Of a DNA stretch of 52,809 nucleotides, positions 2,875-52,809 are shown piece by piece. Source of the stretch: Patescibacteria group bacterium (lineage in GTDB: Bacteria; Patescibacteriota; Minisyncoccia; GCA-002772825); NCBI GenBank assembly GCA_024654625.1, contig JANLHB010000024.1, positions 1-52,809 on the forward strand, written 5' to 3'. The translations under genes and the position numbers were made by a program. The first letter of the stretch is position 1. Each line of letters begins with the position of its first letter. The notes beneath the pieces are model-generated. The model was not told the origin of the DNA, did not search any database, and was given only the letters and a program-made list of their open reading frames with translations.

Positions 2875-2966
2875 GCGAGCTTGCGGAGCTCGTAATAGAG
2901 GTTCGTCGTGTACTACTGAAGAGTACACGACGCCCAGCACCCTTTAGTGGTGCTTGGGCGATTCCT
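2875..2966 (+). pseudogene. tRNA-Arg 3'-half duplicate with T-loop insert
   Basis: Positions 2875-2905 are identical over 31 nt to 2804-2834 of tRNA-Arg, from the base before the anticodon stem into the T loop (TTCG). The copy is then interrupted by about 53 bp of hairpins and resumes as CGATTCCTC, the rest of the T loop and T stem. CG occurs on both sides of the insert, which would fit a 2-bp target duplication. There is no D arm or acceptor stem, so it cannot be a working tRNA. Confidence 0.75.
2904..2958. repeat. Two-hairpin palindromic element (family E), copy 1
   Basis: Hairpin 1 is a perfect 11-bp stem (CGTCGTGTACT at 2904-2914 with AGTACACGACG at 2922-2932) around the loop ACTGAAG. 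Hairpin 2 is a 9-bp stem (CCCAGCACC with GGTGCTTGGG, one bulged T, 2933-2958). A copy differing at one base over about 60 bp is at 52744-52803, also in a tRNA T loop. Confidence 0.8.
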
Positions 2967-49499: not shown

Positions 49500-49730
49500 A
49501 ACGGCTCAGCCGGTTGAATTGTTGAGTTGTGGAAATCGGTCGCTACGTAGCCATGTGATTTTTAAAACGGGAATCGGTCAGGAGTATTTTTTCTGACGAA
49601 AAAATCTCACGACCCTGCCTCGCGGTGTTCGCCTTTCGTCCGCCATATAGCGGACTCAAACTCACACAACGCTCCGGCTTTCGATTCCCGACGCGAGGCA
49701 AGCAGTTGCCTCGCTCCACTTACACAGCGC
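49500..49730. repeat. Hairpin-rich spacer with inverted T-arm-like fragment
   Basis: The spacer 49405-49769 holds no gene but many inverted repeats: GTCCGC/GCGGAC (49638-49655), CGAGGCAA/TTGCCTCG (49693-49712) and GTCAG/CTGAC (49575-49596). TTTCGATTCCCGACG (49679-49693) shares CGGGAATCGAA, in opposite orientation, with the T arm of the adjacent tmRNA, so it looks like another tRNA-like fragment next to a palindrome. Confidence 0.5.
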
Positions 49731-49764: not shown

Positions 49765-49769
49765 GGCTG

Positions 49770-50170
49770 TGGAAGTGGCGGGAATCGAACCCGCGTCCAG
49801 TGGTCTCCTGTGAAAACACGTCTACAAACTTATCTTTTTTATCGCCCGTAAAGTGCGTGGGCAATTTAAGAGTATAGGATCTAAAAAAGCAAAAGTCGTT
49901 ATACTCCGATCCTCTTTGTTTCGAAAATTCGTCGAGGAAAGCGAATTCTCTATTTCGGTGATTTGACGCCCGCTTTACTTACCGAAAATAGATAAAGCTA
50001 GACGGCTTACGCAATAGCGTATGCTGGAGCAATGTCGTTAACTCCAAAATATGGAGAAACGGTTGCTTTTACAGTTTTAGCACTTATTTGTTTGCGATGT
50101 TTAACGAGCGTTCGCAAGCTCGGTTTGCAGTATTTTTAAGGTATGATCACTGTCGAAGCCAATCACTCCC
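49770..50170 (-). ncRNA. ssrA: Transfer-messenger RNA
   Basis: About 401 nt. tmRNA rescues ribosomes stalled on broken mRNA and tags the product for proteolysis. The 5' end GGGAGTGATTGGCTTCGACA pairs with the 3' acceptor ACTTCC; the 3' end carries a clear T arm (GCGGGTTCGATTCCCGC). CCA is not encoded. The tag frame (50066 to 50007) reads ATVSPYFGVNDIAPAYAIA then TAA, ending Ala-Tyr-Ala-Ile-Ala instead of the common ALAA. smpB is directly upstream. Confidence 0.92.
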
Positions 50171-52639: not shown

Positions 52640-52712
52640 GCACTCGTAGCTCAGTTGGTAGAGCATCGAGCTTATACCTCGACGGTCCCAGGTTCGAGTC
52701 CTGGCGAGTGCA
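52640..52712 (+). tRNA. tRNA-Ile (anticodon TAT)
   Basis: A 73-nt cloverleaf: acceptor GCACTCG/CGAGTGC, D stem GCTC/GAGC, anticodon stem TCGAG/CTCGA with loop CTTATAC, and T arm CCAGG/CCTGG with loop TTCGAGT. The loop gives anticodon TAT, which reads AUA (Ile). Most bacteria use CAT with lysidine for this codon. CCA is not encoded. It follows the ftsH stop by 10 nt. Confidence 0.9.
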
Positions 52713-52809
52713 CTAAGATTTATGAGACCTCCGTGGTTCCAGATTCGTCGTGTACTACTGAAGAGTACACGACGCCCAGCACCCTTTAGTGGTGCTTAGG
52801 CGAGTCCTG
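52713..52809 (+). pseudogene. Degraded tRNA-Ile 3'-half copy with family E insert
   Basis: After the intact tRNA-Ile, the sequence TTATGAGACCTCCGTGGTTC...CCAGATTCG aligns loosely with the tRNA from anticodon loop to T loop. The T loop is interrupted by the two-hairpin element (52746-52800), and CGAGTCCTG then resumes the T stem exactly as in tRNA-Ile. The window ends here. The element is the same as at 2904-2958 with one base changed over about 60. Confidence 0.7.

Follow-up and report, generated by a model that had tools for sequence, protein, structure and literature searches.

Few genes of a cell are as constrained as those for transfer RNA, and the question raised by this locus is why a near-identical pair of hairpins should stand twice on one contig at the same point of tRNA-derived sequence. 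The window, the whole stretch of 52,809 nucleotides analysed here, corresponds to contig C24 in the 831-kb genome of a Patescibacteria group bacterium (G000); the sampled genomes include a single relative of the same genus, the sister species G001. The original prediction described two copies, at 2902–2961 and 52744–52803, lying between TTCG and CGA in Arg and Ile sequence. This was confirmed. Aligned over 60 bp, the copies differ by a single mismatch (98% identity), and each occupies an identical T-loop position, one in Arg-like and the other in Ile-like sequence. A degenerate pattern of the double hairpin matched the window twice, and had no match in 100 shuffled sequences.

The hosts of the hairpins are broken tRNA copies

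The prediction that the hairpins were inserted in tRNA T loops held for the T-loop sequence, but not for working tRNAs. The hairpin-bearing tRNAs are partial, broken 3′ copies, and the adjoining working tRNA genes were found intact by ARAGORN. The features of both loci lie on the forward strand. At the first locus, an intact tRNA-Arg (2778–2851) is followed by a broken second copy (2870–2984) that spans the anticodon stem to the 3′ end, its T loop interrupted by the double hairpin. Bases 27–57 of tRNA-Arg match positions 2875–2905 of this copy at 31 of 31 positions (100%, BLAST). After the double hairpin, the copy continues into a 3′ end (CGCGAGGACA) with an acceptor stem unlike that of the intact gene. 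Upstream lies an intact tRNA-Lys (TTT, 2687–2761, ARAGORN) and, 111 bp before it, a broken tRNA-Lys 5′ fragment (GCGCCCGTAG...TCAGTT, 2577–2646, found by reading). The palindrome CCTGCCTACCAGCAGGCAGG (2588–2607) interrupts this fragment, and another GC palindrome comes after it. GC palindromes like these are seen repeatedly, both within tRNA fragments and in intergenic sequence.

At the second locus, an intact tRNA-Ile (TAT, 52640–52713, ARAGORN) is followed by a broken 3′ tRNA-Ile fragment (52728–52809) containing the second double hairpin (hairpin 1, 52748–52772; hairpin 2, 52775–52800). The contig end cuts this copy; contig C44, with an exact overlap of 99 bp, continues it and ends ...CGAGTCCTGGCAGGCACACATTTTTT. 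The native tRNA-Ile (TAT) of the sister species also ends CGAGTCCTGGCAGGCACACATTTTTT, the sequence that follows the hairpins in G000, while the intact tRNA-Ile of the window has acceptor and anticodon stems unlike that native gene. The contrast between intact gene and fragment was seen for Arg and Ile in the window, Ile-GAT in G001 and Arg in a further genome, G037. Because the two members differ at these loci, the intact tRNA genes may be newcomers, as judged by sequence comparison.

Architecture of the double hairpin

In the first copy, hairpin 1 (2906–2930) has a 9-bp stem and a 7-nt loop, ACTGAAG, and is bounded by CG at 2904–2905 and 2931–2932. Hairpin 2 (2933–2958) has a 9-bp stem with one bulge and a 7-nt loop, CTTTAGT, and is followed by CG at 2959–2960. 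Nine copies were read, giving a 53-bp unit of the form CG-h1-CG-h2-CG, with two 9-7-9 hairpins and a CG bounding each. The middle CG is changed to CA in one aligned copy; all other hairpin boundaries are CG. The two loops are reverse-complementary (ACTRAAG and CTTTAGT). One copy (C21) carries three hairpins, and in another (C39) the loop of hairpin 1 is inverted, which is a DNA-level event.

A normal T loop results when h1-CG-h2 and one CG are taken out, and the TTC/G junction is identical in every T-loop copy. Stem pairing is maintained by covariation, with 11 pairs altered on both sides, a level reached in none of 500 shuffles. The signal was abolished when the pairing partner was shifted by 1–3 bases. 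Fold and covariation agree that the two adjacent hairpins form one repeated unit. That this unit is inserted at a single loop point of broken tRNAs is well documented. The double hairpin would appear to be a small mobile unit inserted at a CG of a tRNA loop, usually at T-loop bases 56–57 and once in an anticodon loop.

Distribution of the double hairpin

Six distinct double-hairpin sites were found in G000 and eight in G001. Every one of these sites lies in a tRNA fragment; of those in G001, six have both hairpins or a cut pair and two have a single hairpin. When 237 genomes of the class were scanned with the hairpin core RYMCYACTRAAGRGKRY, G000 and G001 gave 25 matches, every one at a tRNA fragment that had already been identified as a site, and six matches were found elsewhere. 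Five of these six are double hairpins in or adjoining tRNA fragments: in the T loop of Arg-TCT (G195), in the T loop of Arg-CCG on two contigs (G205), in a degenerate form at Pro (G084), and at an anticodon-loop CG of a broken tRNA-Arg (G037). No tRNA was seen at the sixth (G225). Relatives of the double hairpin occur in two families besides that of G000 and G001, and near-identical cores are found at Arg, Ile, Val, Phe, Trp, Leu and Pro loci across the three families.

Comparison of the sister species showed that the Trp, Phe, Val-GAC and Ile-TAT loci differ in presence or absence of the element, the orthologues being empty or native. These empty orthologues, and the common junction at tRNA-derived sites, support the claim that a defined element was inserted site-specifically, and a search of the two genomes for copies at random non-tRNA sites found none. 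The T loop as the target, also claimed, applies to most copies, though not to the G037 pair in its anticodon loop.

Viral contigs, scanned by pattern, contained no double hairpin. A scan of the genomes of 84,980 species, with loop spacing fixed, returned the sister species and one match in WOR-1, and nothing else. The WOR-1 match lies in a ribosomal-protein leader and was rejected as a chance hairpin pair.

Related two-hairpin elements behind tRNA and tmRNA genes

The tRNA genes of G000 and G001 are often trailed by a second copy of their own 3′ end. These are exact repeats of 17–19 bp, beginning in the T loop, and are found behind many tRNAs. The interval between the tRNA and the repeated 3′ end is occupied by two-hairpin inserts that belong to at least two other kinds, types B and C; in their fold, the tRNA 3′ end supplies the closing stem. 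Covariance models identified type C, an insert of tRNA and tmRNA T loops, in 82 of the 237 class genomes, while seven genomes had type B; in other classes of the phylum, type C was present in 36 of 286 genomes. An intact tRNA or tmRNA gene stood upstream on the same strand at 25 of 30 type C loci, 16 of 20 type B loci and 20 of 27 loci from the phylum sample, and at many type B and C loci the right arm duplicates the 3′ end of that upstream gene. A retroviral-style primer-binding site was considered for the inverted tRNA 3′ ends and rejected, because the pairing region is split by a hairpin and is missing from the double hairpin.

In the window, a type C element (49568–49722, reverse strand; model match 49568–49690, 89.8 bits) lies behind the tmRNA gene (49769–50170, reverse strand, ARAGORN), and its left arm contains the hairpin GCGAGGCAACTGCTTGCCTCGC. 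Type C is followed here by a type B-like remnant (AAAAATCACATGGCTACGTAGC) and then a second tmRNA 3′ end (TTCCAC), a series that apparently represents nested insertions. Type C elements also have near-invariant unpaired positions, GCCGNAG...CGAGGC and GTCGCGA...TTTGTGAC.

Exact 3′-end repeats that start in the T loop are what would be expected of integrase att sites. The inserts might accordingly be read as remnants of tyrosine-recombinase integration, with the second 3′ end as attR and the hairpins as core-type binding sites. The T loop serves as attB for phage Ms6 (PMC1762012), whose integration resembles the present case in its T-loop target and duplicated tRNA 3′ end, and the 9-7-9 hairpins look like recombinase arms in inverted orientation on either side of a 7-bp spacer. 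However, the inserts are mostly about 60–250 bp and have no integrase gene, those read at the tRNA loci being too short for one, and the same hairpin pair occurs at a CG in an anticodon loop. Broken 5′ fragments upstream, carrying palindromes of their own, would not be expected either, and the stem sequences vary while their pairing is maintained. Tyrosine-recombinase integration is considered an unlikely source.

Mobilization of REP- or IS200-like hairpins by a Y1 (RAYT) transposase would account for short hairpin repeats with precise ends, as known for REP and IS200/IS605 elements, and Y1 proteins are encoded in 159 of the 237 class genomes, G000 included. Their distribution does not track the elements, however. 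The original prediction had proposed looking for a RAYT-like gene that follows the element. For the related type C, several element-rich genomes (G013, G018, G023 and the single-contig G103, with eight copies) lack Y1 (PF01797), and on this distribution Y1 transposase was rejected as the general mover. The target and boundaries also differ, the CG repeats being unlike the known REP arrangement. This origin appears very improbable.

Pairing of type C elements and the RNA reading

Type C pairing is strongly conserved. In an alignment of 70 sequences (A4, including window positions 49568–49690), 368 changes on both sides of a pair were counted, against 92 expected from shuffles. Such covariation, the complementary loops of the double hairpin and the position of the elements on the same strand as the tRNA would suit functional structured RNAs in tRNA transcripts, acting as cis regulators or as a ribozyme-like element. 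To set against this, G-T and A-C mismatches occur in a ratio of 46:27 in type C stems and 127:19 in tRNA stems, the reference being 217 tRNAs from the loci read, counted over their acceptor and T stems (Fisher's exact test, P = 8 × 10−5). As the ratio is lower than in tRNAs, type C pairing is less RNA-like than that of real RNAs, though its mismatches are still not fully symmetric (P = 0.03). In addition, a terminator-like hairpin separates the window tmRNA from its type C element, the loop is inverted in one double-hairpin copy, and presence differs between sister species. Rfam returned tRNAs only, plus sub-threshold matches at type B and C loci; type C itself had no match. The mismatch ratio and the terminator-like hairpin favour a DNA-level role, and we regard a functional RNA as improbable.

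A DNA-level origin might need no dedicated enzyme. Tandem tRNA duplications would decay, and template switching would build and perfect hairpins in the useless copy. The weak G-T bias, the near-perfect stems and the single loop inversion fit such a process, but the recurrence of near-identical cores at loci of seven tRNA kinds in three families does not. Local template switching cannot yield shared cores of this sort, which speak against it for the double hairpin, and as a general account it seems a poor candidate.

GIY-YIG genes beside tRNA genes

The prediction that the element, having no open reading frame, must depend on a host or mobile-element enzyme needs qualifying: most copies lack an adjacent GIY-YIG gene, but at two of them one lies directly beside the double hairpin. 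At G001:C41, which adjoins an N-gap at the contig end, the order is the 5′ part of a tRNA-Arg, the double hairpin in the T loop, the GIY-YIG gene and tRNA-Arg again. At G037:C16, it is the 5′ part of a tRNA-Arg, CG-h1-CG-h2-CG in the anticodon loop, the GIY-YIG gene and a second broken tRNA-Arg, which encloses an intact tRNA-Arg between the inverted repeats CCCCGCA and TGCGGGG. Although they come from different families, the two GIY-YIG proteins are 60% identical and mutual best matches, the next in 237 genomes being about 47% identical.

An arrangement of this kind, an intact tRNA between the halves of a split palindrome, was noted both at this G037 locus (L322) and at G022:C3 (L136; TGCCCCGCCAAATTCAT/ATGAATTTGGCGGGGC). 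Each split palindrome sits in the D loop of a broken tRNA that matches the intact one in kind, and the whole resembles a transposon carrying a tRNA. At G025:C8 (L154), tRNA-Gly fragments flank an intact tRNA-Gly and a GIY-YIG gene, and the hairpin CCCCGCCACGGCGGGG replaces their anticodon arm.

The association extends across the class. Among 86 small GIY-YIG loci, taken from class genomes outside the genus of G000 and G001, 33 had a tRNA or tmRNA gene no more than 500 bp away, compared with none of 20 uvrC loci (Fisher's exact test, P = 3 × 10−4). In 32 of these 33, the tRNA or tmRNA gene is on the same strand, usually 24–53 bp downstream. Most of 25 such loci have a 5′ fragment of the cognate tRNA upstream of the reading frame, outscoring every non-cognate tRNA, and many of the fragments are interrupted by a GC palindrome. 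The usual order is a hairpin-broken 5′ tRNA fragment, a small GIY-YIG gene and an intact copy of the same tRNA. GIY-YIG genes were also seen within 200 bp downstream of tmRNA genes (L141 and L142). In viral contigs, one distant GIY-YIG relative was found (43% identity over 44 residues).

A proposed origin by GIY-YIG cassettes

We infer from this gene neighbourhood that a GIY-YIG protein is the responsible enzyme. The double hairpins would be scars of GIY-YIG cassettes that invade and restore tRNA genes, most copies being shortened remnants, an explanation to which we give about an even chance. The enzyme would open a tRNA gene at a loop CG, and insertion would bring in tRNA sequence, whether from the 5′ or the 3′ part of the gene or as a whole spare gene, leaving one working tRNA next to the broken halves. 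Repair of the cut loop would install the hairpins, which would then block re-cutting, and the double hairpin would remain as a scar or cap in the broken member of the tRNA pair. Full-length cassettes would encode the small GIY-YIG protein; both window copies would be shortened remnants. GIY-YIG homing enzymes such as I-TevI leave 2-nt overhangs, and the 2-base CG repeats would fit these.

Several observations run against the GIY-YIG explanation. An adjacent GIY-YIG gene was found at only two double-hairpin loci, and G000 has no close match to the hairpin-linked subfamily. The 100% complete genome G014 has type C elements, yet its only GIY-YIG gene is uvrC-like. The intact tRNA retains the T-loop sequence, and only the site in the broken copy is interrupted. 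The assemblies are also drafts that break at several of the double-hairpin copies, and the G001:C41 locus lies next to the gap noted above.

Relation to known systems

Short, GC-rich tandem hairpin pairs without an open reading frame, thought to be mobile, are found in fungal mitochondria (Allomyces, Schizosaccharomyces), in several copies per genome, near-identical across species, and mostly in intergenic sequence or rRNA genes (PMC10085805, PMC2800124). They share with the present element the two-hairpin unit, presence or absence in relatives and the lack of an open reading frame. They differ in that the element described here is in a bacterium, at one exact loop point in broken tRNAs, with boundary CGs and a GIY-YIG gene beside some copies. 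As in GIY-YIG homing cassettes, a small GIY-YIG gene lies in an essential gene whose function is preserved by adjoining sequence; here, however, there is no intron or intein, the target is a tRNA or tmRNA gene, hairpins stand in the broken halves, and cutting is presumed. By analogy, the element may work like a mitochondrial double-hairpin element combined with a homing endonuclease, a likeness drawn from its workings. In the literature searched, which included few subscription journals, no paper was found on GIY-YIG genes, hairpins or palindromes at the tRNAs of Parcubacteria or Patescibacteria.

More broadly, Patescibacteria may harbour a distinct class of selfish DNA living on tRNA and tmRNA genes. 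In this wider proposal, which we consider plausible but somewhat short of an even chance, a GIY-YIG enzyme would open the loop-coding site, one intact and sometimes foreign tRNA would be left, and hairpins would be written into the broken halves. This single process would yield the repeated tRNA fragments, the spare tRNAs between inverted repeats and the two-hairpin elements found phylum-wide, and would swap tRNA genes between lineages. If true, it would account for the hard-to-assemble tRNA loci of Patescibacteria genomes, and offer a source of small site-directed nucleases that naturally target conserved loops. In a phylum of minimal genomes where broken copies, inserted hairpins and adjacent GIY-YIG genes accompany many tRNA genes, it would also constitute a route for the horizontal replacement of tRNA genes.
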